Assembly (NCBI GenBank): GCA_000961805.1
Contig: LADV01000005.1
Location: forward strand, 1 to 14,289
Direction of reading: 5' to 3'
Length of the DNA: 14,289 bases
Source: Peptococcaceae bacterium BRH_c23
GTDB lineage: Bacteria > Bacillota_B > Desulfitobacteriia > Desulfitobacteriales > Desulfitobacteriaceae
Shown here one piece after another: positions 115-14,289 of the stretch (positions are counted from its first letter, which is position 1; each line of letters starts with the position of its first letter). The notes under the pieces were generated by a model. It made no database searches. It worked only from the letters and a program-made list of their open reading frames with translations, and had not been told where the DNA came from. The translations under genes were made by a program, and so were the position numbers.

Positions 115-144
115 TTTACAAGAATTTAGAATTAAGGTTATAAT
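115..144 (+). promoter_or_regulatory. Sigma-70/A-type promoter for the cobalamin-controlled gene set
   Basis: A -35 box TTTACA (115-120) and a perfect -10 box TATAAT (139-144) are separated by 18 bases. Transcription would begin near 150, just ahead of the first cobalamin aptamer at about 162. That is where a riboswitch-controlled transcript should start. A weaker overlapping option uses TTGACA at 71-76 with TAAATT at 94-99. Confidence 0.7.
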
Positions 145-161
145 GAAAACAATTCAATATT

Positions 162-328
162 AGGTAATGAGTGATTTTTTTCTAAGGAAAAGAATTTAAA
201 AGGGAAGTCAGTTAAAATCTGACGCGGTCTCGCCACTGTCATAGGGAGTTGCCTCACAAAGTGTCACTGGATTTTATCTGGGAAGACGTGGGGTAATGAT
301 GAACTAAAGCCAGGAAACCTGCTCATTT
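162..328 (+). ncRNA. Cobalamin riboswitch aptamer 1
   Basis: The core consensus of the B12 riboswitch family (Rfam RF00174) is visible. It includes GGGAAGTC near 212, a GTTAAAATCTGACGCGGT stretch, the CGCCACTG element at 231-238, GTCACTGG and TGGGAAG further on, a GATGAAC stretch at about 298, and the B12 box AGCCAGGAAACCTGC (308-322). The closing helix P1 can be drawn from AATGAG (166-171) paired with CTCATT (322-327). A hairpin (about 335-367) and an intrinsic terminator (422-452) follow, so the likely mode is B12-dependent premature termination. Family knowledge says the ligand is adenosyl-, methyl- or another cobalamin. The boundaries are approximate. Confidence 0.93.
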
Positions 329-334
329 CAGATC

Positions 335-367
335 AACACAGGAACCTACGGAAGATAGGGGAGGTGT
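335..367 (+). promoter_or_regulatory. P13-like hairpin after aptamer 1
   Basis: An outer stem ACAC/GTGT and an inner stem CCTA/TAGG enclose a 7-base loop (CGGAAGA, 349-355). The position just after the B12 box fits the regulatory hairpin that, in characterised cobalamin riboswitches, makes a kissing contact with the aptamer. A matching hairpin follows aptamer 2 with a different outer stem, which supports the fold. Confidence 0.5.
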
Positions 368-421: not shown

Positions 422-452
422 CCTTTACAGGTATTCTGTAGAGGCTTTTTTT
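422..452 (+). terminator. Intrinsic terminator of riboswitch 1
   Basis: CCTTTACAG (422-430) pairs with CTGTAGAGG (436-444) as a 9-bp stem with one G-U pair and loop GTATT. A run of seven T follows (446-452). It sits between aptamer 1 and the small ORF at 478, as expected for the off-switch of a transcriptional riboswitch. A further short hairpin, TCCGG-CTAA-CCGGA (397-410), lies just upstream and may belong to the alternative fold. Confidence 0.85.
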
Positions 453-477: not shown

Positions 478-678
478 GTGAGAGACCGAGAGAAGAATAA
501 GGAGATGGAAGAGCACAGGCAAGCGTTGCTTGATGCGCGAGGGGAAATCTTGGGGAGGTATAATTCGGAAAAGGAGCAGAGGATTCAGTGGCTAGTGAAG
601 TTTATTGATATTGAAGATGAACTCGAAGAATTATCCCGACGGCAAAGCCAATGGGTGAACTTATTGACGATTGAGTAA
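478..678 (+). CDS. Small charged helical protein of unknown function, between two cobalamin riboswitches
   Basis: This 66-residue ORF starts at GTG behind a very good ribosome binding site. Its sequence is rich in Glu, Arg, Lys and Gln, has no signal peptide or membrane segment, and looks almost wholly alpha-helical, possibly a coiled coil (for example residues 6-25 and 40-56). I do not recognise a family. It lies downstream of the terminator of riboswitch 1 and ends some 17 bases before aptamer 2, so it should be made only when cobalamin is scarce. It could be a small regulatory or accessory protein of the uptake system. It could also be a leader ORF whose translation matters for what follows, or a remnant of a gene once controlled by riboswitch 1. 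Translation is likely and the role is unknown. Confidence 0.55.
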   Translation: MRDREKNKEMEEHRQALLDARGEILGRYNSEKEQRIQWLVKFIDIEDELEELSRRQSQWVNLLTIE

Positions 679-694
679 AATCGAATAACATTGG

Positions 695-856
695 AATTCA
701 GGTATCGGAGTATGAGTGCTTCGGTTAAAAAGGAAGCAGGTGTAATTCCTGCACGGTCCCGCCGCTGTGATGGGGAGATGTTTCGTAAAGGCCACTGGTT
801 TAGTCTGGGAAGGTGCGAAACATTGATGATCCAGAGTCAGAAGACCTGCCTGTATT
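695..856 (+). ncRNA. Cobalamin riboswitch aptamer 2
   Basis: This is a second independent copy of the B12 aptamer. It shows GGTGTAATTCCTGCACGGTC, the CCGCCGCTGTGATG element (variant of CCGCCACTGT), GGCCACTGG, TCTGGGAAGGTGCG, GATGATCC and the B12 box AGTCAGAAGACCTGCC (835-850). P1 can be drawn from CAGGT (699-703) with GCCTG (848-852). It differs from aptamer 1 across most variable stems, so it is not a recent copy. A P13-like hairpin (about 864-894) and a terminator (934-966) follow, then the 1421-residue gene at 1024. Small ORFs reading through this segment on either strand are riboswitch sequence, not genes. A weak promoter just upstream (TTGACG 664-669, TAACAT 686-691) cannot be excluded. 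Confidence 0.94.
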
Positions 857-863
857 TTAGACA

Positions 864-894
864 CCAACGACTCTACGAGCGATAGGGGAAGTTG
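864..894 (+). promoter_or_regulatory. P13-like hairpin after aptamer 2
   Basis: An outer stem CAAC/GTTG and an inner stem CTA/TAG enclose loop CGAGCGA (876-882), with the shared TAGGGGA on the 3' side. It has the same place and shape as the hairpin at 335-367. The outer stem has changed on both sides (ACAC/GTGT to CAAC/GTTG), which is covariation supporting a real structure. Confidence 0.5.
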
Positions 895-933: not shown

Positions 934-966
934 AGCCTCTTGACCAATCGGTTAAGAGGCTTTTTG
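934..966 (+). terminator. Intrinsic terminator of riboswitch 2
   Basis: AGCCTCTTGACC (934-945) pairs with GGTTAAGAGGCT (950-961) as a 12-bp stem containing one G-U pair, with loop AATC and a following T run. It lies 58 bases before the start codon at 1024 and should stop transcription when cobalamin is bound. Confidence 0.9.
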
Positions 967-1023: not shown

Positions 1024-4000
1024 ATGAAAAGAGAATTTCAAAAATTATATTCATGGCTACTGATAGTTGTAATGACGATTTCCATGTTGGTTATGCAAAT
1101 GCCTTTGGCTAAACCGGTTTATGCGGCATTAGATCAGAACAGTACTATAATGCCTGTGACAGCTGTTTTTGACAAGAATTCTGCTCATCAAGCCGATGTG
1201 CAAATAACGACGACTCTTAATGGTAATAATTTAATCAGTATAACCAATGGTGGAACTCCGCTGACGGTAGGGAACGACTATACAGTAACAACCGGCAGTA
1301 GTATTACCATTGGTAAAGGATATTTGGCCCAACAGGCGATAGGAACAACCACTCTGAATTTTATTTTCAGTGCAGGCAATCCTCAGGCTTTGCAGATAAC
1401 TGTTTCTGACTCTACACCGGCTTTAACAAAAGTGCTTAACTATTATCAAAGCAAAAATTATAGTAATGCCACTACCTGGTGGGATATGGCAGGACTCTGG
1501 GGCGCCGGGAATACACAAAAAACCAGTTGGGACACCAGTCAAACCAGTCTTTATGGAAATATTTTGGGAACACTGGCCAAGGGGGGAGATCCGAGCAATA
1601 CTCTCAACGGACGTAACCTCTTGTCTGAACTAAAGGCGACGCAGAATAGTAGTACAGGTGCTTTCCCCGGTTCCTATGGTCTAACTTCAGGCGACCAAAT
1701 CTGGGCTATGGTAGCTCTGGATGCTGCTAAAACAGAATATGACCAAGAAAAAGCGGTCTTAAATTTATTGACGTATCAAAATTCGGATGGCGCTTTTTTC
1801 TACTCGACTGATTACAACACCAGTGATCCTGACCAAACGGGGATGGCCCTGCTGGCTCTGGCCAATCATCAAACGCTGACTGGTGTTACAGATTCTATTG
1901 TTAAAGCCAAGGCTTATCTTAAGGGGATACAAGAGAATACAGGAGGATTTGCTTCCTGGGGAATCGATAATCCTAACAGTGTTGCTACTGTAATTTCGGG
2001 TTTAGTAGCTATCGGTGAAGATCCCGTAGCGGATGGCTGGAAAAAGAATGGGAAAACTATGCTGGATGATCTGCTCAGGTTTCAGTTAGACGACGGGTCA
2101 TTTTACTCTCCCTATAGTCCAGGAGTAACCGATGATATGGCAACGTATCAGTCCTTGATTGCGTTGGGGGATATAAATGCCCATGAATCGGTCTGGCAGA
2201 GGCTGCAAGAAAGCAGTCCTCAAGAAACAAGTGACAGTACAATCACGCCAGTGACGGCTGTTTTTGACAAAAAGACTGCGAATCAAGCCGATGTGCCAAT
2301 AACAATGACTCTTAACGGAAATACTTTAAACAGTATAACCAATGGCGAGACTACGCTGACGGCAGGGAGCGACTATACGGTTGCGAACGACGGCAGTACT
2401 GTAACCATTGGTAAAAACTACCTTGCCAACCAGGCGACAGGAACAACAACACTGAATTTCATTTTCAGTGCCGGCAATTCTCAGGCTTTGCAGATCACGA
2501 TTTCTGATACTACTTCGTCTTCTACGCAGCAGCCTGCCCAAAGTAATATTACTTTAGAGGTTGTCGGAAAGAACGGACAAACTATTCTCTCATCAGCTAC
2601 TATGTCATTAGTAAGTGGGGATACGGCTTATTCCGTTCTGATAAGGGAGCTAGGTCAGGGTCAGGTGACGGTTACCGGATCAGGTTCTTCCTTTTATGTC
2701 AGCGGGATCAATGGGCTAAATGCAGGGGATGATGGTGCTACAAGCGGTTGGATGTATTCAATAAATGGTGTTTATCCAAGTGTAGGTGCTGCTTCAATTT
2801 CTTTAAAAAATGGTGATGTAGTGGCATGGCGCTATACAACCAATCTGGGCAAAGACGTAGGTGACAGCAGTACAGGAACTACAACCGTTACTAGCCCTGC
2901 CACCCCGGCTGCTTCAACCGGCTCAACCGGCCTAAGTAACCAAGAAGTATTAGCAGGATTGAATAATGCCACGGCACAGCAGAAGTCCGATGCTAGACTG
3001 CTAGACACCACTCCCTCTGTCAGTCCGACGGCTACTGAACAGGTGGCACTGAAGACCGTGGACGGAGTTCAACTAATCATACCTACGGGAGCACTAAGTA
3101 ATCAGAGTGCGCCGGTTAACTTCACAGTTGAAATCGGCAACGTGATGACTCCACCTAAGGCCGATACAGGTGCCATAGTAATCGATCCTCTTAAGTACCA
3201 GCGCCAGTTTGGCATTAAAAACCCTTCAGGAACGGTTCAGGAAGAGCCTATTCAGTTTAATGCTCCCGTTAACATTAGTTTCCCTATCGCGTTAGGAGAT
3301 CTTCCCAGCGGGATCACGAGCCAACAACTGGCCATCTATTGGTGGGATACGGTCAAAACTGATTGGGTTAAATTGGGTGGCGTTTATAACCCGGTCACCA
3401 AGACCCTGTCCGTGCCGACGTATCACTTCTCCACGTTTGCAGTAATGGCAGATGGCTCTAGTGTTCCTAAGCGTTTAGCCGGTCTTGACCGGTTCCATAC
3501 AGCCAACACGGTAGCAACACAGGGCTGGAAAGCCGGAGCAGACAATGTGGTATTGGTTAACGCCTACGCATTTTTCGATGCCCTAGCTGCGGTTCCCCTA
3601 GCCTTTAAGCTCAACGCTCCCATCCTGTTAACGGAGAAAGAAACGCTTACCCCGTCGACACTGGAAGAAATACAGAAGCTAGCACCGAAAAAAATTACCT
3701 TAATAGGAGGTACAGCCGTCATTTCCCAGGCTATTCAAGCTGAGCTGGAAAAAGTCTACGGAGCGGACAATGTGCTGCGCTACGGTGGGCCGGACAGTTA
3801 TAGCACGGCTGCTGTTATTGCCACTGCCTTGGGTACGACAGGGAAGGCGATCATTGCCAACGGTGGTGAAAATAGCTATGCCGATGCTCTCGCTGTATCC
3901 AGTTATGCTGCCTACAAGGGAATTCCTATTCTTTTCACAGAAAGAACGGTTCTCCCAGCAGCCACAGTTCAGGCTCTGACTGCGCAAAAAGTCACCTCCA

Positions 4001-5289
4001 CAATTGTGGTGGGCGGCAGTTACGTCATACCGGAAGAAATCACTCAGAGTTTACCGGGAGTGGTACGCTACGCTGGAAGCGACCATTATTCGACAGCAAC
4101 CGCCATCGCTCAGGGGTTAAGTCTTAATACGAACCGGGTGTATGTAGTGACAGGTCTAAATTTTGCTGATGCCTTAACCGCTGGGAATTTGGCTGCGCAT
4201 TCTTTTTCCCCGGTTATTATGGTGGATACTACCATACCGGAAGCCGCTTCAAGTTTCCTAACCGTCCACAAAGACACAATCTCCGACCTGGTCATTGTTG
4301 GAGGAGAAGGGATTATCAGCACGGATCAAGAAAACCAGCTGCGAACGATCGTTACGAACCCAGTCCAGTCCCAGGTAGGCGTTTCAACACGCCAGCAGGT
4401 GAATGAAACAATCAAAAGTTTGGCAGGCTGGGAAAAGGCCTATATCCAAGCCGCCTTCACTCAAAAGGCTTCGGGTGAAATCCTTGATCCCACGGTCTAT
4501 AATTGGCCCACTGTCGGACTGGGGCGTCTGGAACGCTACGACGGCTTGTCTTATTATCTGGCAGAAAACGAGAAGTACCTTGCCCAAGATTGGAACTCCG
4601 TCACACGGAAAGTGACTAACTTGGCCAGAATAAGCTTGGCTGTAGGAGCTGCCAAAGGAGATCCTCGCAATTTCGGTGGTAAGGACTTGATTGCTGAGAT
4701 AGCTAACTATTCTGATGTTGAAGCACAGGGCATCAATGGACCGATTTTTGCCCTGATTGCCCTGAACAGCAGTGATTACGATTTACCGTCGACGGCTCTA
4801 TGGACGCCGGAAAAATTGCTAAAAATCATTTTAAACAAGCAGCTAACGGATGGCGGATTTTCCCTGGACGGAGCCGGGGATAGTGATCCAGATATTACGG
4901 CGATGGCTCTTCAGGCCTTAGCCCCTTACTACACAGACAGCCATCCGGAAGTGCAGGCGGTTGTGAAGAAGGCGATAGCTTGTTTAGCCGCGCAGCAGGA
5001 CTCAGAGGGAGGATTCAAATCCGGGGGCATCGACAGCAGTGAAAGCGTTAGTCAAACAATTATTGCATTGTCGTCTTTAGGGATTGATATTGATACCAAC
5101 TCGTTGTTTATTAAAAATAACAAGACCCTCTTGAGTGCCTTGCTTCGATTTAGCTCTACGGACGGTGGTTTTAAACATCTTTTAATGGGGAAATCGGATA
5201 ACACTGCGTCCCAGCAAGCATTGCTTGCCTTAGCATCTTATGTAAGATTTAAGGATGGAAAGAATTCCTTATATGATTTTCGCCCCTAG
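1024..5289 (+). CDS. Secreted wall-bound protein with intrinsic-factor-like barrel, DUF4430 and cell-wall-binding repeats; predicted corrinoid-capture protein
   Basis: The protein has 1421 residues and an ATG start, with AGAGGGGA 9 bases upstream. In order: signal peptide 1-34 (cut after VYA); X2-type Ig-like module 41-129; alpha/alpha-barrel prenyltransferase-like repeats 134-392; second X2 module 405-495; DUF4430 508-613, with the signature GWMYSINGVYP and KNGDVVAWRY; a Ser/Thr/Ala/Pro linker 614-640; a ZU5-like beta domain about 665-808; three CWB2 repeats 817-1110 that should hold it to the cell wall; and a second alpha/alpha-barrel domain about 1120-1412. Family knowledge: mammalian intrinsic factor and transcobalamin consist of an alpha/alpha barrel plus a DUF4430-like beta domain that clasp B12 between them. 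Motifs such as SDPDQTGMALLAL and SDPDITAMALQAL resemble the DTGAMA-type helices of those carriers. With two cobalamin riboswitches upstream and an ECF transporter downstream, a role in trapping cobalamin or other corrinoids at the surface is well supported but not proven. A terpene-cyclase activity is unlikely for a secreted protein with this context. Confidence 0.85.
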   Translation: MKREFQKLYSWLLIVVMTISMLVMQMPLAKPVYAALDQNSTIMPVTAVFDKNSAHQADVQITTTLNGNNLISITNGGTPLTVGNDYTVTTGSSITIGKGYLAQQAIGTTTLNFIFSAGNPQALQITVSDSTPALTKVLNYYQSKNYSNATTWWDMAGLWGAGNTQKTSWDTSQTSLYGNILGTLAKGGDPSNTLNGRNLLSELKATQNSSTGAFPGSYGLTSGDQIWAMVALDAAKTEYDQEKAVLNLLTYQNSDGAFFYSTDYNTSDPDQTGMALLALANHQTLTGVTDSIVKAKAYLKGIQENTGGFASWGIDNPNSVATVISGLVAIGEDPVADGWKKNGKTMLDDLLRFQLDDGSFYSPYSPGVTDDMATYQSLIALGDINAHESVWQRLQESSPQETSDSTITPVTAVFDKKTANQADVPITMTLNGNTLNSITNGETTLTAGSDYTVANDGSTVTIGKNYLANQATGTTTLNFIFSAGNSQALQITISDTTSSSTQQPAQSNITLEVVGKNGQTILSSATMSLVSGDTAYSVLIRELGQGQVTVTGSGSSFYVSGINGLNAGDDGATSGWMYSINGVYPSVGAASISLKNGDVVAWRYTTNLGKDVGDSSTGTTTVTSPATPAASTGSTGLSNQEVLAGLNNATAQQKSDARLLDTTPSVSPTATEQVALKTVDGVQLIIPTGALSNQSAPVNFTVEIGNVMTPPKADTGAIVIDPLKYQRQFGIKNPSGTVQEEPIQFNAPVNISFPIALGDLPSGITSQQLAIYWWDTVKTDWVKLGGVYNPVTKTLSVPTYHFSTFAVMADGSSVPKRLAGLDRFHTANTVATQGWKAGADNVVLVNAYAFFDALAAVPLAFKLNAPILLTEKETLTPSTLEEIQKLAPKKITLIGGTAVISQAIQAELEKVYGADNVLRYGGPDSYSTAAVIATALGTTGKAIIANGGENSYADALAVSSYAAYKGIPILFTERTVLPAATVQALTAQKVTSTIVVGGSYVIPEEITQSLPGVVRYAGSDHYSTATAIAQGLSLNTNRVYVVTGLNFADALTAGNLAAHSFSPVIMVDTTIPEAASSFLTVHKDTISDLVIVGGEGIISTDQENQLRTIVTNPVQSQVGVSTRQQVNETIKSLAGWEKAYIQAAFTQKASGEILDPTVYNWPTVGLGRLERYDGLSYYLAENEKYLAQDWNSVTRKVTNLARISLAVGAAKGDPRNFGGKDLIAEIANYSDVEAQGINGPIFALIALNSSDYDLPSTALWTPEKLLKIILNKQLTDGGFSLDGAGDSDPDITAMALQALAPYYTDSHPEVQAVVKKAIACLAAQQDSEGGFKSGGIDSSESVSQTIIALSSLGIDIDTNSLFIKNNKTLLSALLRFSSTDGGFKHLLMGKSDNTASQQALLALASYVRFKDGKNSLYDFRP
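1144..1410 (+). repeat. Internal duplicated X2 module, copy 1 (copy 2 at 2242-2508)
   Basis: Both stretches encode PVTAVFDK, a Gln-Ala-Asp-Val segment, a TLNGN turn, DYTV, and TLNFIFSAGN followed by QALQIT. They stay clearly alike at the DNA level, 1098 bases apart. Conservation of this kind inside one gene indicates a duplication. The copies flank the first alpha/alpha barrel and may act as spacers or carbohydrate-contacting modules. Confidence 0.8.
2242..2508 (+). repeat. Internal duplicated X2 module, copy 2
   Basis: This is the partner of 1144-1410. It lies between the first alpha/alpha barrel and the DUF4430 domain, so an Ig-like spacer separates the two putative B12-clasping modules. 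Mammalian carriers have a short linker there. Confidence 0.8.
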
Positions 5290-5478
5290 TAGAGCCTGAC
5301 TGTTCAGACCTCTTCTGTTAATGCAGGAGACTGAACCATGCTCATGCTCACTCTATTGCGAGGGGCTTTGTCTGAGAGATAATTTTGTTCAGTAGAGGGA
5401 GGGGCTGTTAACGATTAGATAATCTCTGATCCATACGGACCCTCATAGACAAAAAGTGTTTGAAGGAAGGAATAGAAT
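5290..5478 (+). other. Intergenic stretch between capture protein and lipoprotein genes
   Basis: These 189 bases hold no ORF I can support and no cobalamin aptamer. GTTCAG (5302-5307) can pair with CTGAAC (5331-5336) around a partly paired interior, giving a hairpin without a T run. It is therefore not a standard terminator and may be a processing or partial attenuation element. No convincing promoter is visible, so co-transcription with the upstream gene is likely. Confidence 0.35.
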
Positions 5479-6243
5479 TTGAAAAAGATAGCATCGTTTC
5501 TTTCCGTGGTTCTGTTAATAGTGGCCCTTCTTTTGACGGGCTGCGGTGCAGATAAGAACGCTGCATCAGGGTCGTCTAATGACAGCGTGACGAAGGTATC
5601 AAGCAATATTGAAGAAACCAAATTAAACGATACCGCTCTTGGATCAGACAACAAAAATTATTCAACAGATAGCGGTAAATCCCAAGTTGAACCCCTTAAC
5701 TCAGATGTGTCCAAAACAACCGAGAACGACCTAAGTCAAGGAAATACCACCAAAGTCGCCGCGGCATCCACGACGCTTATTGAAGCTAATCCTTCCTCGC
5801 AAACACCGGCAATTCAAGTTCCGATTCCTGTCAAACCTGAAAACTCAGATAAGAAAGCAGTAACTATCGCCATTAACTGTGCTACTGCAGTAGCTAAAGG
5901 TCTCGACAAGCAGGAAAAATTCAAAGATGTCGTTCCGGCTAATGGGATCATTTTGCCTGCCACAACAGTTGAGTTTAAAGAGGGAGAAACTGTGTTTGAT
6001 GCCTTGAAGTTGGTTGTTCGCGAAAATAAAATTCAGATGCAGTATGAAGGTTCCAAGGGAACACCCTATATAAAAGGGATTAATAATCTTTATGAGTTTG
6101 ACGGCGGACCTTTAAGCGGGTGGATGTATAGTGTCAACGAAGTGAATGCAAGCTATGGGTGTAATGAAGCTAAGCTCAAAAATGGTGACGTCATTGAATG
6201 GAACTATACCTGTGATATGGGTAGAGATATAGGGAATAAGTGA
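5479..6243 (+). CDS. DUF4430 lipoprotein; predicted membrane-tethered corrinoid-binding partner of the ECF transporter
   Basis: This 254-residue protein starts at TTG, with a ribosome binding site (AAGGAAGGA) in the 16 bases before it. Residues 1-21 form a lipoprotein signal with lipobox LTGC, so Cys22 should be lipidated on the outer face of the membrane. Residues 23-125 are a polar, Ser/Thr/Asn/Lys-rich flexible linker. Residues 126-254 form a DUF4430 domain (GWMYSVNEV, KNGDVIEWNYT, GRDIG) like that at 508-613 of the upstream protein. Three cysteines (134, 228, 245) in this domain are absent from the upstream copy and could form a disulfide. No alpha/alpha barrel is present, so it is half of an intrinsic-factor-type pair. 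Its stop overlaps a possible GTG start of the EcfT gene (6240). Inference: it hands the ligand from the wall protein to the S component. DUF4430 lipoproteins with other ligands cannot be excluded. Confidence 0.85.
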   Translation: MKKIASFLSVVLLIVALLLTGCGADKNAASGSSNDSVTKVSSNIEETKLNDTALGSDNKNYSTDSGKSQVEPLNSDVSKTTENDLSQGNTTKVAAASTTLIEANPSSQTPAIQVPIPVKPENSDKKAVTIAINCATAVAKGLDKQEKFKDVVPANGIILPATTVEFKEGETVFDALKLVVRENKIQMQYEGSKGTPYIKGINNLYEFDGGPLSGWMYSVNEVNASYGCNEAKLKNGDVIEWNYTCDMGRDIGNK

Positions 6244-6296
6244 CCGGGGGAGTGAAGAAGGACGAAAGTGGTTACGGAAATAAGGGGGAGACAGCC

Positions 6297-7184
6297 TTGA
6301 ACAGAGCATTCTCAGCGTTTCATCCATCAGTGAACTTTGTATTTTTTGCAATTATCTTAGCATTTACGATGCTTTTTATGCATCCGATTTTTTTGGGCTT
6401 AACCTTAACTTCAGCCCTTATTTTCTCCTTAATTTTGAATGGGCGAAGGGGCGTGAAGCTAAGTCTCTTATTCTATCTCCCCATGTTCTTATTAATCGCC
6501 ATCATTAACCCCTTATTCAATCATAGAGGAAGAACAATGTTGTTTTACTTCATGGACAATCCCATTACGTTAGAGGCCATCTTTTTTGGAATATGTTCGG
6601 CGGCGTCTCTGATCGCCATTATGGCCTGGTTCTCTTGTTACAATAAAGTCATTACCTCGGATAAGTTTTTGTATTTGTTTGCCAAGATGATTCCGGCGGT
6701 GGCCTTGCTGATTACAATGACGATTCGAATGACTTCTAAACTAAAATATCAACTGAAGACAATATCGAATGCTCAACACACGATAGGGATAGATCATAGT
6801 ACAGGAAATCTAATCGAGAGAGTAAAAAAAGGAATGAGAGTCATATCCATACTGCTGAGCTGGTCTATGGAGGATGCGATTGAAACGGCGGATTCCATGA
6901 AGGCTAGAGGATATGGGCTGAAAAATCGAACGACATTTTCACTTTTTAACTTTGATAAGCGGGATGGTTTAGTATTAGGCGTGATTAGCGTACTAGGGGG
7001 CATATGCTTTGCGGGATATTTCGCAGGATACGGGACGATGCAATTTTATCCGTCAATCAGGCCTATGGATTTATCAACCCCGGCTATCGTCCTATACCTA
7101 GTATTTGCTGTGTTAGCGTTTTTACCGATTATTATCGAAGTAAAGGAGAGCTACAAATGGCGTTTTTACAAATCAAAAATTTGA
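6297..7184 (+). CDS. ecfT: EcfT: transmembrane scaffold of an energy-coupling-factor (ECF) transporter (CbiQ family)
   Basis: EcfT links the two ATPases to the substrate-binding S component in the cytoplasmic membrane. I prefer the TTG at 6297, 6 bases behind AGGGGGAG. It gives a 295-residue protein whose beginning (FSAFHPSVNFVFFAI) matches the usual CbiQ/EcfT start. A longer in-frame form from GTG 6240 (314 residues) would overlap the lipoprotein stop by 4 bases. Several hydrophobic stretches alternate with a long cytoplasmic region. The coupling-helix signature Ala-Arg-Gly occurs in ADSMKARGYG (residues 223-232 in the longer numbering), the motif that docks on the ATPase groove. The end of the gene overlaps the ATPase gene by 28 bp, which implies translational coupling. 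The family identity is secure. B12 as substrate is inferred from the operon. Confidence 0.9.
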   Translation: MNRAFSAFHPSVNFVFFAIILAFTMLFMHPIFLGLTLTSALIFSLILNGRRGVKLSLLFYLPMFLLIAIINPLFNHRGRTMLFYFMDNPITLEAIFFGICSAASLIAIMAWFSCYNKVITSDKFLYLFAKMIPAVALLITMTIRMTSKLKYQLKTISNAQHTIGIDHSTGNLIERVKKGMRVISILLSWSMEDAIETADSMKARGYGLKNRTTFSLFNFDKRDGLVLGVISVLGGICFAGYFAGYGTMQFYPSIRPMDLSTPAIVLYLVFAVLAFLPIIIEVKESYKWRFYKSKI

Positions 7185-8830
7185 GCTTTTCCTATCCTAA
7201 GACCGAGGCAAGAGCACTCCAAAGTGTGAACTTAGAGATTAAGGAAGGCGAGCTTATTTTAGTCTGTGGGGTGTCAGGCTGTGGCAAGAGCACCCTTTTA
7301 CGGCATATAAAACGTGAGATTACGCCGCATGGTCGTAAGAGGGGTACGGTACTCTATAGAGGTCTAGAAATTGAAAAATTAGATCGAAAAATCGCAGCCT
7401 CTGAAATTGGATTTGTGATGCAAGATCCTGAAACTCAGTTAGTGACAGATACCGTTTGGCATGAATTGGCCTTTGGTCTTGAAAATTTAGGGCTAAGCAC
7501 GTCCGAAATTCGTCGTAAGGTGGCCGAAATGGCGAGCTTCTTTGGTATCGATGGCTGGTTTAGAAAATCGGTGGATGAATTGTCCGGCGGCCAAAAACAG
7601 CTCTTAAACCTAGCCTCGGTGATGGCCATGCAACCCAAGCTACTAATCTTAGATGAACCGACGGCCCAGCTAGATCCGATTGCGGCTCAAGACTTCCTAG
7701 CAACGATCGCCAAAATCAATCGAGACTTAGCGGTAACCGTCATTTTGACAGAACATCGACTAGAAGAAGTATTCCTAATGGCGGATAGAATTGTGGTCAT
7801 GGAAAAAGGGAAAATAGTTTGTTTTGATACACCGGAGCAAACCGCCAAACTCTTAGCGGATAGGAAGGCTCAACAGACGATCTTTAAAGGATTGCCTTCT
7901 GCAATTCGAATTTATAGCGAGATAAGGTTGGGCAATGATTGTCCTTTAAGCGTGAGGGACGGGAGAAAATGGCTCGATGAATTTATGACCCCAGTCGGGA
8001 GGGTCTTCAATGATCCAGTGAATGATCAAGCTCAAAAGCAAAAGCCTGTCATCAAAGCCGAAGAAATATGGTTTAAGTATGCGAAGGACGGAAATGACAT
8101 TTTGCGGGGATTTTCGCTTAAGGCCTACTCGGGGGAAATACTCTGTGTGTTAGGGGGCAACGGAACCGGTAAAACGACCATGCTCGGCGTGATTTCAGGA
8201 TTACTAAAACAGTATCGAGGAAAGGTTGAAATTAGCGGTAAAAGAATAGAAACTTTCCAAGCGAAAGAGCTTTATCGCAACAATATAGCTCTCTTACCTC
8301 AAAATCCGAGAGCGTTATTTGTTTGTGATACCGTCCTAGGGGATCTGAAAGAGGCGGCAACTATACTTAGACTGGATAATGATAGTATAAGAACTGAAAT
8401 TGACAGGATTGCCAAAGAATTGAGAATCACTCAATTCTTTGAACGACATCCGTATGATTTAAGTTGTGGAGAGCAGCAAAAGGTGGCCCTCGCTAAGTTG
8501 TTACTATTGGAACCCATAATAGTGTTATTAGACGAGCCGACCAAGGGGCTGGATGCCGAGTCTAAGGAGGAATTAGGGATAATCCTAAAAAGGTTATGCA
8601 GTAAAGAGGTTGCGATGGTTATAGTGACTCATGATATCGAATTTGCTGCGGAGTATGCAGATCAATGTGCCATGATGTTTGACGGGGATATTGTATCAGA
8701 AGGAAAACCTAATGAGTTTTTTGCAGGAAACAATTTTTATACGACAGCTGCCAATCGGATGGCAAGAGGCATCTTCCCCGATGCCGTGACTTGTGAGGAT
8801 GTGATTGAACTGTGCAAGATAAGCGTCTAA
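7157..8830 (+). CDS. Fused tandem ATPase of an ECF transporter (EcfA-EcfA' in one chain)
   Basis: This is a 557-residue double ABC ATPase. The ATG at 7157 follows AAAGGAGAG (7141-7149) and gives the expected start MAFLQIKNLSFSYP. A longer open frame back to 7004 only overlaps the EcfT gene. Domain 1 has Walker A GVSGCGKST (38-46), Q-loop MQDPETQ, signature LSGGQ (142-146), Walker B LLILDEP (162-168) and switch His200. Domain 2 has Walker A GGNGTGKTT (333-341), Q-loop LLPQNP, a variant signature LSCGEQ (435-440), Walker B IVLLDEP (455-461) and His492. Residues about 240-297 are the linker. ECF modules commonly use two separate ATPase genes. The fused form is known in several Firmicutes and fixes a 1:1 pairing, suggesting a dedicated rather than shared module. 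The stop overlaps the next gene by 19 bp. Confidence 0.92.
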   Translation: MAFLQIKNLSFSYPKTEARALQSVNLEIKEGELILVCGVSGCGKSTLLRHIKREITPHGRKRGTVLYRGLEIEKLDRKIAASEIGFVMQDPETQLVTDTVWHELAFGLENLGLSTSEIRRKVAEMASFFGIDGWFRKSVDELSGGQKQLLNLASVMAMQPKLLILDEPTAQLDPIAAQDFLATIAKINRDLAVTVILTEHRLEEVFLMADRIVVMEKGKIVCFDTPEQTAKLLADRKAQQTIFKGLPSAIRIYSEIRLGNDCPLSVRDGRKWLDEFMTPVGRVFNDPVNDQAQKQKPVIKAEEIWFKYAKDGNDILRGFSLKAYSGEILCVLGGNGTGKTTMLGVISGLLKQYRGKVEISGKRIETFQAKELYRNNIALLPQNPRALFVCDTVLGDLKEAATILRLDNDSIRTEIDRIAKELRITQFFERHPYDLSCGEQQKVALAKLLLLEPIIVLLDEPTKGLDAESKEELGIILKRLCSKEVAMVIVTHDIEFAAEYADQCAMMFDGDIVSEGKPNEFFAGNNFYTTAANRMARGIFPDAVTCEDVIELCKISV

Positions 8831-9513
8831 GCAGGTATACAAAAATAATCAGAATCATGTTGATCATTTTATTACCGTTATTGATGGTGCTATCTTCGTT
8901 AAGTGGGGATAAGAACTACGGTTTATTAAGTCTGATATTTATAATCGTTGCGATGGTTCCGTTCTTCCTAAGGTTTGAAAAGCGTCGGCCAGAGGCCAGA
9001 GAATTGGTGGTTATTGCTGTAATGGCTGCTTTGGCGGCCTTAGGGCGGGTTGTATTTGCCCCGATTCCCAATTTCAAGCCAACCTCCGCTATTATCATCA
9101 TAACAGCTCTGGCGTTCGGACCTGAGGCAGGGTTCTTAACAGGTGCTACAGCGGCAGTAGCCTCAAATTTATTTTTCGGACAAGGTCCATGGACCCCGAT
9201 GCAAATGTTTTGTTGGGGGATGATCGGTTTTGGCGCAGGGATATTGGGGAATGCAGGTTTCCTCAAACGGAAATTCAGCTTATCCGCCTATGGACTCTTA
9301 TCCGGGTTTGCCTTTGGCTGGGTCATGAATCTCTGGTATATTATCGGATTTATCAACCCTATTACCTGGCAGGCTATAGTAGCAGCGTTCATATCAAGTT
9401 TCTGGTTTGATTTTACACATGCAGTATCAACCCTAATCTTCCTTCTTGTGTTGGCGAAACCTTGGCTAAAAAAGCTAGAGAGGATAAAAGTTAAATTTGG
9501 CTTGATGGAATGA
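8812..9513 (+). CDS. ECF transporter substrate-binding membrane subunit (S component), predicted corrinoid-specific
   Basis: The protein has 233 residues, is strongly hydrophobic, and starts at GTG inside the end of the ATPase gene. The S-component core begins near residue 62 with helix 1 ELVVIAVMAALAALGR, rich in AxxxA spacing used for docking on EcfT. It continues through PTSAIIIITALAFGPEAG, GATAAVASNLFFGQGPW, MFCWGMIGFGAG and about six helices to residue 215. Two more hydrophobic segments (about 11-30 and 36-53) precede the core, giving perhaps eight helices where six are usual. Characterised B12-type ECF S components (CbrT/CblT type) have this general makeup, and the cobalamin riboswitches upstream point to the same ligand. 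Specificity for cobalamin, cobinamide or another corrinoid cannot be read from the sequence. No clear terminator follows; only a weak 4-bp hairpin near 9541-9552 precedes a T run. Confidence 0.85.
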   Translation: MQDKRLSRYTKIIRIMLIILLPLLMVLSSLSGDKNYGLLSLIFIIVAMVPFFLRFEKRRPEARELVVIAVMAALAALGRVVFAPIPNFKPTSAIIIITALAFGPEAGFLTGATAAVASNLFFGQGPWTPMQMFCWGMIGFGAGILGNAGFLKRKFSLSAYGLLSGFAFGWVMNLWYIIGFINPITWQAIVAAFISSFWFDFTHAVSTLIFLLVLAKPWLKKLERIKVKFGLME

Positions 9514-9606: not shown

Positions 9607-10044
9607 ATGATTACAGCCACTGTTCATAGTCTAGAAGGTGTTATCTGCAGACTCGGGTTAGACCCACTCATAGTTAACCGCTTTATGGAGGAGTGGTTAC
9701 AAACTGCACACGAGGTTTCGTTTGAGGAAGCTAATGAGGTAGCTTGTATATTGAACAAAATGAAAAGATGCACTAAGTACTATTTAGCCCCAGATCCTAC
9801 ACAAGAGGGTCATCAGGTCGTGCTCATTGTGAGAAAAAATCGAGTAATTACTGTACTTACTCAGTTAACCAATTCCTTTTTCGGTGTACCTGAGGCTAAG
9901 ACGATAAATGGCACACGTATGATTAGAACACTCGGGGGTGAGATGTATGAAGACAATGGCAATATGTGCATCCTCGCTATCTGGGTAAGCCTTTTATATC
10001 TAATAGATCGCGCAGATTTTTTACTTCTTGAAGGGCTCTTTTAA
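9607..10044 (+). CDS. Hypothetical protein, 145 residues, unrecognised family
   Basis: The ATG at 9607 has GGGAGTG about 8 bases upstream; the ATG at 9602 runs into a stop at once. The first 115 residues look like a small soluble alpha/beta protein, with helical segments at about 14-50 and a strand pair around HQVVLIVRKNRVITVLTQL. I do not recognise the family. The last roughly 22 residues are hydrophobic and are encoded antisense to the isomerase remnant (9977-10261). The original C-terminus may therefore have been lost and replaced when that junction formed. It is transcribed in the same direction as the transporter genes but 93 bases away, and nothing links it to B12. It could be a genuine small gene or a partly decayed one. 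Confidence 0.5.
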   Translation: MITATVHSLEGVICRLGLDPLIVNRFMEEWLQTAHEVSFEEANEVACILNKMKRCTKYYLAPDPTQEGHQVVLIVRKNRVITVLTQLTNSFFGVPEAKTINGTRMIRTLGGEMYEDNGNMCILAIWVSLLYLIDRADFLLLEGLF

Positions 10045-10298: not shown

Positions 10299-10327
10299 AA
10301 AAAGGTATGCACTAACTATGCCTTTTT
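10299..10327 (+). terminator. Hairpin with A/T arms, possible bidirectional terminator or 5' leader stem
   Basis: AAAAAGGTAT (10299-10308) pairs with ATGCCTTTTT (10318-10327) around loop GCACTAACT, with one G-U pair. An A-rich left arm and T-rich right arm suit an intrinsic terminator readable from both sides. It would end transcription from the 9607 ORF side. Its stem is short in G-C pairs, so strength is doubtful. Confidence 0.4.
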
Positions 10328-10388
10328 GTGGAAATTATGCAGGATTTTGCAGTTGAATTTATCTTATTTTATGAAGGGGGTAAATATT

Positions 10389-13300
10389 TTGATTATTAAG
10401 AAGTTTTTGAGAAAGATTATCGCCGGGTCTGTAATCTCAAGTATGCTCATTTCATCCATACTCTGCTATTCGCCTTTTCTTCCTAAGGCAGAAGCAGCAA
10501 CAACAGAACATAACAGTTCTAACTCTATGCCCTTGATTCAAACGCTTAATAAACAAATAGCCGATCCGGATCAACAGAAAGAATCTGATTCCAAAAGTGT
10601 TAATGAAATACTAGATAATCCTAGTTCTAGCAAAACTGATCCAAATAATTCATTGGAAGATCAAAAAACAGATCGTTTCATCGTTAAATACAAAAGCGAA
10701 AACCAAAAAGAAGAATTAGTCAATAAAGTAAAAGGAAATCTCAAAGAAAGAAAACTTACGAAGAACAATAAATTAGACGTTTATATAACTTCGGAAAAAC
10801 TAAAAAAAGAAGATTTCAGCGCCTTGCTCAAACAAAAAGAGGCCGATAGTAATATCGAATATATCCAACCGGACTATGAATTGGAAATATCCTCCAACGA
10901 TCCCTGCTTTGAAAGCCAGTGGGGATTAAGTAATAGTTCGCTGGTAGCAACCGGAAAGCAACTCTTACAAGATGACCCATCCAATAAAAATGATACGGAA
11001 TTTAACAAGGATTTATTAATCAGTCTGATTGGTGATCCAATAAAACTAGAAATGTTAGTACATGTACTACAAAATCTACCAATTGAGGATCCACAATACA
11101 GAAGCATACTGGATAATATAACCCATAGTAATCTCCAGCAGGAACCAATCAATGAAGAAACCCTGTACAATCTCCTAAATGATTACATAATAACAAACCC
11201 AACCTACCTGGAAATGTTTAAAAATTCACTACCTAAAGATATGGCAGATATTCTCTTCGAAGACAAAGGTCAAACTCAAACCGGCTATCAGGTAGATGCC
11301 GGGGTAGTCCCAGCCTGGCATCTATCCGAAGGTGCTGGGGTCTTGGTAGCAGTCTTAGACACCGGCATAGATATTACCCATGAAGATCTGGCAGGGAACA
11401 TCTGGGCCAACAGTACGGAAATACCCGGCAATGGAATCGATGACGACGGAAATGGCTATATAGACGATGTTAGCGGCTGGAACTTCTCTGCAGACAATAA
11501 TCTGGTTCATCAAGAGAGTCTGAGCAGTGACGAGGTGCATGGAACACAGGTAGCCGGAATCATAGCGGCAGTTAAAGATAACTCGCAAGGAATCGCCGGA
11601 GTTGCACCAGCGGCTAAAATACTGCCATTGAAGGTGTTCGAAAATGGCAAAGCCTATACCAGCAATATCATCAATGCCATCAACTACGCAGAGGAAATGG
11701 GTGCCAAGGTAGCAAACTGCAGTTGGGGCTCAAGCAATGACAACCCGGCACTTAAAGAAGCCATCGAAGGTTCCAATATGCTGTTTGTTTGTGCAGCTGG
11801 CAACAGCGGTTCAAACATCGATAATACCCCGGTATATCCGGCAGCCTTCGACTGTCCCAATATAATAACAGTAGCCTCAATAAACAATACAGGCAACTTA
11901 TCCAGCTTTTCCAATTACGGCGAAACAGCTGTCGATGTAGCAGCGCCAGGAGAAAATATTATCAGCACAACACCCGGCAATACCTATGGAGCCAACAGTG
12001 GAACCTCCATGGCGGCTGCCTTTGTCTCAGGGGAAGCTGCCCTACTGATCAGTAAATTTGGCGATTCAAATATCAGTGATCTAAAACAGAGGATCATAAA
12101 TTCTTCCGATAGATTGTCTACACTTGCCCAAAAAACCTCTCAAGGGCGAAAAATCAATTGCTCCAATGCCCTAAATGAGATCTACCCTGACGAGGTTATT
12201 GAGATACAGGGAGATTATGTTCCCAATGTCAACGAAACAACGGAAATCTCGGAAGAAGATTATAGTTTATATGCCGCAGCTGCAGCAACCGGACAGTTTA
12301 CCAGCGTTGCTTGCGGTAGTGATCATACACTGGCTTTAAAAAACGATGGAACGGTTTGGACTTGGGGGAATAACAGTTATGGTCAGCTTGGTAATGGCTC
12401 CTATAATAACAGTATATTCCCGATACAAGTACCTGGTTTAACAGGAGTGACAGCAATCGCAGGGGGATATAGTCACTCAATAGCTTTAAAAAATGATGGC
12501 ACGGTATGGACATGGGGATATAACAATTATGGCCAGCTGGGGGACGGAACGACAACAAACAGAACTACCCCGGTACAGGTGTCTGGCTTAAACGGAGTTA
12601 TTATTACGGCAATTGCAGGTGGAAGGTTACACACAGTAGCGTTGAAAAGTGATGGCACGGTCTGGACATGGGGATATAACTATTATGGCCAGCTGGGAGA
12701 CGGAACAACTACCAACAAAACTAACCCTGTACAGGTGCTAGGATTAACAGGTGTGACGTCAATTGCAGGAGGATCTTATCATACTATAGCGTTGAAGAAT
12801 GATGGCACGGTCCGGACGTGGGGATATAACTATTATGGTCAGTTGGGGGATGGCACAACCACAAATAGGACTACCCCGGTGAACGCAATTGGATTGACAG
12901 GAATGATAGCAATTGCCGGAGGATATTATCATACAATAGCATTGAAGAATGATGGCACGGTCTGGACCTGGGGAAGTAACAGTAATGGCCAGCTGGGGGA
13001 CGGAACGACTATAAAAAAATCAACCCCGGTACAGGTACCTGGATTAATGGGAGTTACTGCAATTGCCGGAGGATATTATCATACCATAGCATTGAAGAAT
13101 GATGGTACGGTCTGGGCATGGGGAGATAACACTTTTGGTCAGCTGGGAGACGGAACGACAACGAACAGATCTACTCCAGTACAGGTGTCTGGCTTGACAG
13201 GAGCGACAGCAATTGCAGGAGGATATTATCATACTATAGCACTAAAAAATGATGGTACGGTAAGGACCTGGGGATATAACTATTATGGTCAGCTGGGGGA

Positions 13301-14289
13301 CGGAACTACAACAAACAGAACTACCCCGGTACAAGTGTCTGGCTTGACAGGAGTGACAGCAATTGCAAGCGGATATGCTCATTCAATAGCGTTAAAGAAT
13401 GATGATACGGTAAGGACCTGGGGATATAACTGGTATAGCCAGCTAGGCAACAATGTTAAAGGCTATAGAGAATCACCGGCATGGGTTTTGGGAAAAAGTC
13501 AAACAGCTACATTGCCGGGTACGACGGGTAGCTTTATTAAAATTGCAAGTGGATTTAGTCACACCATCGCTTTAAAGAATGATAGTACAATATGGACTTG
13601 GGGTTCTAACAGTTATGGTCAACTGGGAGATGGAACGACTATAGATAAGTCTAGCCCAGTACAGGTGCCTGGATTAACGGGAATCACAGCCATAGCCGGT
13701 GGAGGTTCACACACAATAGCCTTAATGAATGACGGCACGGTCTGGACCTGGGGTTCTAACGGATATGGCCAGTTGGGAGACGGAACGTATACAAACAGAA
13801 CTACCCCGGTGCAGGTACCCGGATTGACGGGAGTAACGGCAATTGCAGCAGGAAATTATCATACAATCGCCTTGAAGAATGATGGTGCGGTCAGGACATG
13901 GGGATACAACAATAATGGCCAACTGGGAGACGGAACGACTACCAACAAAACTACCCCGGTACAGGTGCTAGGATTAACAGGTGTGACGTCAATTGCAGGT
14001 GGATATGGTCATACCATAGCGTTGAAGAATGATGACACGGTCTGGACATGGGGATATAACAGTAATGGCCAGTTGGGAGATGGAACGACAACAAACAAGT
14101 CTACCCCGGTGCAGGTGCCAGGCTTAACGGGAATTACGGCAATTACAAGTAGATATAGTCACACAATAGCGTTGAAAAATGATGGCACTGTCTGGACATG
14201 GGGAGATAACTATTATGGCCAACTGGGAGACGGAACGACTACACAAAAGGTAACCCCGGTACAGGTGCCAGGCTTAACGGGAGTGACGG
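10389..14289 (+). CDS. Secreted subtilisin-like (S8) serine protease with RCC1 propeller repeats (3' end outside the window)
   Basis: At least 1300 codons are open to the right edge. I chose TTG 10389 because GAAGGGGGT (10373-10381) lies 7 bases upstream; an in-frame ATG at 10371 would overlap that site and has none of its own. A signal peptide occupies about residues 1-36 (cut near AEA), then a polar stretch, then an I9/fervidolysin-type propeptide 94-168 ([21 protein letters not shown]). The catalytic domain spans about 301-580 with Asp324 (VLDTGID), His384 (VHGTQVAG), oxyanion Asn472 (AAGNSG) and Ser540 ([11 protein letters not shown]), so all key residues are present. A roughly 120-residue insertion (about 182-300) separates QWGLSN from DAGVVPAW, which in relatives are close together. 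From about residue 632 at least 13 RCC1-type units follow. The predicted product is a large extracellular protease whose propeller could bind substrate or surface. No wall anchor is visible within the window. Confidence 0.92.
12354..14289 (+). repeat. Tandem array of RCC1-type repeats, 13 units (last cut by the window)
   Basis: Units start at 12354, 12504, 12660, 12810, 12960, 13110, 13260, 13410, 13590, 13740, 13890, 14040 and 14190. Ten of the twelve complete units are exactly 150 bp (50 residues), one is 156 (unit 2) and one 180 (unit 8). The consensus begins [19 protein letters not shown], continues [17 protein letters not shown], and ends [11 protein letters not shown] first half-blade (about 12290-12353) precedes unit 1. 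The reading frame is kept throughout. RCC1 folds have seven blades, so the array should make one full propeller and most or all of a second. Confidence 0.93.

Follow-up and report, generated by a model that had tools for sequence, protein, structure and literature searches.

The DNA examined here is a stretch of 14,289 nucleotides (hereafter the window) from contig LADV01000005.1 of Peptococcaceae bacterium BRH_c23. It contains, in this order, two cobalamin riboswitches (RF00174), a secreted wall-binding protein, a lipoprotein, and the T, fused A-A' and S components of an energy-coupling factor (ECF) transporter (Table 1). All coordinates are window positions, and all listed features lie on the + strand. 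The two riboswitches and the complete transporter had been recognized in a preliminary description made from the DNA alone. Both aptamers score far above the covariance-model gathering score of 31.5 bits, and all transporter components are present, with T assigned by synteny and a CbiQ match below the cut-off. The open reading frame (ORF) listed for A-A' starts at 7004, within T, so its likely start is 7157. Adjacent genes overlap by 4 (lipoprotein and T), 28 (T and A-A') and 19 bases (A-A' and S). The gene order of the window is seen again in relatives, and the arrangement is therefore more than chance.

Table 1. Features of the locus, with positions in the window
Feature	Position	Strand	Basis or remark
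Promoter-like site	115..144	+	TTTACA-18-TATAAT, 11/12 matches; consensus match only; upstream of riboswitch 1
Cobalamin riboswitch aptamer 1	152..340	+	RF00174, 110.9 bits, full length
Intrinsic terminator-like hairpin after aptamer 1	422..444	+	loci L001-L003 share the hairpin and T-run with the window
66-aa ORF between riboswitches	478..678	+	GGAGG ribosome-binding-like site upstream
Cobalamin riboswitch aptamer 2	683..867	+	RF00174, 108.7 bits, full length
Intrinsic terminator-like hairpin after aptamer 2	934..961	+	12 pairs; wall-protein ATG 62 bases further on
Secreted wall-binding protein, 1421 aa	1024..5289	+	signal peptide from sequence; B12-carrier-like domains
N-terminal alpha/alpha barrel, residues 141-396	1444..2211	+	profile search; AlphaFold model
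Wall-protein DUF4430, residues 532-605	2617..2838	+	Pfam, 61 bits
Three CWB2 wall-binding repeats, residues about 801-1110	3424..4353	+	CW_binding_2
C-terminal alpha/alpha barrel, residues 1154-1420	4483..5283	+	profile bounds
DUF4430 lipoprotein, 254 aa	5479..6243	+	lipobox ending at Cys22; DUF4430 at 5983-6210, Pfam, 73 bits
ECF T subunit (CbiQ-like)	6240..7184	+	CbiQ 21.2 bits, under cut-off 25; same place in relatives
Fused ECF A-A' ATPase	7157..8830	+	two ABC_tran domains; TIGR04520 and TIGR04521 above cut-off
ECF S subunit, CbrT-like	8812..9513	+	PF12822 and PF07155 above cut-off

The Pfam content of the wall protein comprises two CBM_X2, three CW_binding_2 and one DUF4430 domain (PF14478; curated cut-off 23.8 bits). 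Profile matches place alpha/alpha-barrel repeats of the prenyltransferase/squalene-cyclase type at two sites, of which the C-terminal barrel had been overlooked in the preliminary description. An X2 domain sits between the N-terminal barrel and DUF4430, and the entire protein contains a single Cys. The earlier assignments of barrel repeats plus DUF4430 to the wall protein, and of a second DUF4430 to the lipoprotein, are upheld by these profiles; both DUF4430 matches clear the curated cut-off, and the second follows a recognizable lipobox.

An AlphaFold model of wall-protein residues 126-613, covering the first barrel and DUF4430, was obtained with pLDDT 88.7 and pTM 0.64. Searches with Foldseek highlight transcobalamin or haptocorrin at each of ranks 1-10, and intrinsic factor at 14 and 17, in agreement with the earlier proposal that the protein carries the fold pair of the mammalian B12 carriers. 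The modelled DUF4430 displays a beta-grasp fold like that of the transcobalamin beta domain (TMt 0.71 and 0.74 against 3u7z; 0.68 against 5no0). Both domains match transcobalamin separately; aligned as one body they give an rmsd of about 23 Å, and the model is not in the closed arrangement. The three best PDB matches of a sequence profile of 58 bacterial DUF4430 domains (A2; from 58 of the 68 listed short DUF4430-bearing proteins) are haptocorrin and two intrinsic factor entries; all three are weak (E 0.001-0.009), and unrelated proteins appear from E 0.03 on. A profile of barrel plus DUF4430 (A1; 46 of the 47 listed stretches) was rejected as a link to transcobalamin, since its PDB matches are cyclases, prenyltransferases and thioester proteins, reached through the barrel. 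Locus L002 was omitted from A1-A3 on account of its interrupted wall-protein gene: in this strain, Desulfosporosinus sp. I2 (L002:2128-6427), the gene appears as two overlapping ORFs in different frames, through either a frameshift or a sequencing error.

A phmmer search of the PDB with the S subunit returned 6fnp_A (E 1.7e-14) as the sole match below E 0.1. The one further match up to E 10 (E 1.1) is to a protein other than an S component. According to the available text of PMC5997447, 6FNP is the ECF-CbrT complex of Lactobacillus delbrueckii, and CbrT binds and transports both cobalamin and cobinamide, with hemin not acting as a competitor. Identity of the S subunit to proteins of Desulfosporosinus, the genus of six of the ten relatives found, reaches 88%, and judged by such sequence similarity the locus DNA is Desulfosporosinus-like. 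A search of a plasmid collection gave no match. In a phage collection, records MT839226.1, MT838638.1 and MT835727.1 encode relatives of S with 35-54% identity; these "Bacteriophage sp." records are unannotated and of faecal origin, and possibly represent bacterial DNA in viral preparations.

The association of DUF4430 with this type of S subunit extends well beyond the window. Among 299 sampled genomes of the same phylum, DUF4430 is found in 91 and a window-type S (E<=1e-15) in 87, with both present in 83, DUF4430 alone in 8 and S alone in 4 (odds ratio 529, P 6e-59, kinship uncorrected). The S cut-off is our own choice; relaxing it to E<=1e-3 gives 131/299 genomes, many of them probably through other S families. 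In a subset of 30 genomes selected because of their strong S hits, a same-strand DUF4430 lies no more than 20 kb upstream of 28 of the 32 such hits, and 26 of the 32 have RF00174; among the matches listed RF00174 lies <=10 kb upstream of 45 of 53 DUF4430 hits. Six genomes from the ten loci of S relatives were checked whole, and all 12 DUF4430 hits fall on the contig of the cluster, inside or edging the fetched stretch.

Sixty clusters, picked for DUF4430 or S hits and in many cases bounded with the riboswitch positions known, were scanned against Rfam at gathering scores. Every one of the 65 hits is RF00174. In 52/60 clusters it precedes T or S on the same strand, and in 49 of these it is within 500 bases of the first recognized gene. 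Five of the remaining eight (L068, L069, L082, L109, L111) start at the edge of the fetched DNA; L066, L067 and L071 are real exceptions. Homologous clusters under other riboswitches, which the preliminary description had named as evidence that would count against its proposal, did not appear, as no other Rfam family reached threshold in the 60. The ten loci of S relatives yielded 14 RF00174 hits and two other RNAs, c-di-GMP-I and dinG, which are found in L001 downstream of S. RF00174 precedes DUF4430 or a barrel in eight of these loci; L006 begins with its first gene, while in L007 the T, A-A' and S genes are accompanied by no barrel, DUF4430 or riboswitch. The Ruminococcaceae metagenome-assembled genome (MAG) behind L008 has a single RF00174 genome-wide, heading this cluster.

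Barrel and DUF4430 are both present in 54 of the 60 clusters, fused on one chain in 45 and solely on separate proteins in nine. Even clusters with the fused protein usually encode a DUF4430-only protein as well. T was identified in 66 of 71 loci, and a domain-bearing gene lies upstream of it in 64 (DUF4430-only in 55, barrel-only in 9). Minimal neighbourhoods, in which a DUF4430 protein stands beside S with no barrel (L065, L066, L067 and the named locus L004), suggest that the closest partner of S is the beta-domain protein. A crude lipobox pattern is found in 28 of 69 DUF4430-only proteins, so either lipid anchoring is not general or the assigned start codons are wrong. The idea that each cluster has as many barrels as DUF4430 domains was considered and rejected, as the counts vary. 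Several loci show variants of their own. In Desulfosporosinus sp. PR (L006:173-20684) the barrel/T/A-A' genes come in two adjacent sets, and a giant barrel-DUF4430-barrel protein is encoded past a cobalamin riboswitch at 12332-12514. Five clusters make a single A-A'-S fusion protein: L060 (831 aa), L068 (886), L069 (940), L106 (866) and L111 (892). In L008 and L009 (Ruminococcaceae-type MAGs; about 10522-11384) the gene directly after S resembles, by eye, methylenetetrahydrofolate reductase, which would fit B12-dependent methionine synthesis.

The kinship of S with CbrT, the transcobalamin-type fold pair, the presence of RF00174 in 52/60 clusters and the genomic co-occurrence together strongly support corrinoid capture coupled to ECF import, and on these sequence grounds this is very likely the function of the operon. 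This part of the preliminary interpretation stands; the relay through which it had linked wall protein, lipoprotein and S would follow by analogy with the animal carriers. For the fuller reading, that the locus is a corrinoid (B12 or cobinamide) capture-and-import operon with surface carriers, a CbrT-like S subunit and riboswitch control, we estimate a probability of roughly 0.8.

The available text of PMC11107200 and PMC5599065 describes how, in transcobalamin, the beta domain binds B12 first and the alpha domain then closes; single isolated domains are able to bind, and release of B12 in animals requires proteolysis. The wall protein, anchored by CWB2, and the lipoprotein carry the domain types that sandwich B12 in transcobalamin and intrinsic factor, namely the alpha/alpha barrel and DUF4430 (an SLBB beta-grasp), and would probably bind corrinoid at the wall and at the membrane surface. 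By analogy with transcobalamin, the beta-only lipoprotein could take corrinoid to the CbrT-like S, its beta domain being the likely last hand-over partner. T and A-A' would then power S-mediated passage across the membrane with ATP, as in the proven ECF-CbrT, and high cellular cobalamin would turn the operon off through the riboswitches, as RF00174 and the terminator-like hairpins suggest. The occurrence of the two domain types on separate proteins in 9/60 clusters, and the usual extra DUF4430-only protein, could make capture reversible. It is possible, if rather doubtful, that the barrel and beta domains at the wall, whether joined in one chain or divided between two proteins, act as a reversible intrinsic-factor clasp, which would close on corrinoid, reopen, and pass it to the beta-only lipoprotein and then to CbrT without proteolysis. 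Such a clasp would be a working ancestral form of the animal carriers, in producers and auxotrophs alike.

A different division of labor, in which the ECF transporter imports corrinoid and the barrel/DUF4430 proteins bind some other ligand (glycan, lipid or terpenoid) or are mainly wall scaffolds, has some appeal, given that the barrel fold is common to cyclases, prenyltransferases, and sugar hydrolases or epimerases, that X2 and CWB2 are carbohydrate or wall modules, and that corrinoid binding by these proteins is predicted only. However, these proteins co-occur tightly with a CbrT-like S, cobalamin riboswitches are the only Rfam hits in the 60 clusters, and B12 carriers rank first as the two-domain match. 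DXDD, the catalytic motif of class II cyclases, by which kinship with squalene-hopene cyclase/prenyltransferase enzymes was judged, is found in 0/46 aligned barrels, a further point against this explanation, which we hold to be quite unlikely. We consider it very improbable that the system takes up a precursor or another cobalt compound (cobalt ion or lower-ligand base) instead of whole corrinoids: S resembles CbrT, a carrier of cobalamin and cobinamide; CbiM and CbiN were matched by none of the seven window ORFs scanned; and transcobalamin-type domains bind corrinoids in animals. What speaks for such uptake is the CbiQ-like T and the precedent of a cbiMNQO cobalt ECF operon under a cobalamin riboswitch in C. 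difficile, as given in the available text of PMC11477304.

The origin of the corrinoid is a separate matter. With CbiD as a single-gene proxy for B12 synthesis, 44 of the 83 genomes bearing both DUF4430 and S score positive, compared with 85 of the 216 others (P 0.04), and the near relative G001 also carries CbiD; the system is thus present in likely B12 producers as well. These same counts favor an arrangement in which the surface proteins store or recapture corrinoid leaked from their own cell, as opposed to scavenging it from other organisms. Against this, 39/83 genomes show no CbiD (some may be incomplete), and an external corrinoid supply should matter there. Recapture of leaked corrinoid is compatible with a capture-and-import operon, the corrinoid source being the only difference; as the principal role it appears unlikely, without being far-fetched.

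Between the two riboswitches of the window lies a gene that the preliminary description had overlooked. Its 66-aa product is a charged protein that matches no Pfam family. The corresponding loci of Desulfosporosinus sp. BG and D. metallidurans contain it too, its DNA is alignable in a third locus, L002, and database searches give 24 matches including the window's own, the five named ones being all from Desulfosporosinus. Over the first 54 codons there are 7 synonymous and 3 other codon changes relative to L001, and 5 and 4, respectively, relative to L003; 7/10 base changes are at third positions in each comparison. Given its own ribosome-binding-like site and its position, the gene may be under the control of riboswitch 1, with riboswitch 2 acting on the main operon. 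Terminator-like hairpins number 11 across the window against 11.5 expected in shuffles, and the hairpin calls are therefore weak alone. Directly downstream of S, at 9607-10044, is a 145-aa ORF with no Pfam family and matches in L001 and L004, its C-terminal end being unlike the L004 protein. It is followed at 10326-14288 by a subtilase (Peptidase_S8), large and secreted, which contains numerous RCC1 repeats and continues past the window end.

The preliminary description could not say whether such a system had been described. As an idea it is not new: Burroughs et al. 2007 (PMC1796856), in the text available, predicted B12 scavenging by surface proteins of low-GC Gram-positive bacteria in which a toroid is combined with SLBB. 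They describe these proteins as secreted and often wall-anchored, with operons that hold a second SLBB protein, CbiO and CbiQ, and they propose that animals acquired transcobalamin from such bacteria. The window shares with their SLBB (DUF4430) proteins the secretion, the wall anchoring, the fusion to an alpha/alpha toroid, the second SLBB protein, the CbiO/CbiQ operon and the predicted role in B12 scavenging. It differs in that S is here tied to CbrT, while the terms "riboswitch", "lipoprotein" and "energy-coupling" are absent from the main text of PMC1796856 as available. The same text has bearers usually lacking B12 synthesis, whereas here CbiD is found in 44/83, and a system of B12 non-producers is thus not borne out. 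UniRef entries name DUF4430 proteins 'Transcobalamin-like C-ter...'. Given the 2007 prediction and existing annotation names, the locus is a well-formed example of a type of system already predicted. Added here are the CbrT kinship of S, the RF00174 linkage, the tight co-occurrence, the finding of the system in genomes with CbiD, the match of the two-domain model, and the small 66-aa gene that separates the riboswitches. Titles and abstract starts of the open-licence literature gave no recognizable experiment on B12 binding by a bacterial DUF4430 protein, which does not imply that none exists. If the reading given here is true, about 28% of the sampled phylum genomes (83/299) own a surface B12 capture system with the intrinsic-factor fold beside a CbrT-type transporter. 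The 2007 prediction would then be directly testable with a defined transporter partner, and the system would bear on Gram-positive competition for B12 and on the origin of animal B12 carriers.

Other known systems share parts of this design. BtuG and other Bacteroides surface lipoproteins bind B12 and thus resemble the window proteins in capture at the surface, but they are Gram-negative and work with BtuB. The label 'Additional lipoprotein component of putative cobalamin ECF transporter', which we take to be of RAST/SEED origin, likewise ties a lipoprotein to a cobalamin ECF transporter. It stands in a table of PMC9963975 as a label for one Lacticaseibacillus protein. ECF-CbrT (6FNP) has the ECF module and an S subunit homologous to that of the window (E 1.7e-14); in contrast to the available description of ECF-CbrT, which includes no extracellular binding protein of its own, the window encodes T, A-A' and two surface DUF4430 proteins with S. 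The mammalian carriers differ in several respects. The alpha domain of rat transcobalamin has four disulfides (PMC11107200, available text), whereas the wall protein, with one Cys only, lacks the disulfide pattern and is not classed in the animal carrier family. It has an X2 domain between the paired domains, wall anchoring and a second barrel; the domain pair is not closed in the model, and in 9/60 relatives the two domain types are solely on separate proteins. What the wall protein has in common with transcobalamin, intrinsic factor and haptocorrin is an alpha/alpha barrel followed, on one chain, by a C-terminal beta domain of the DUF4430 type.

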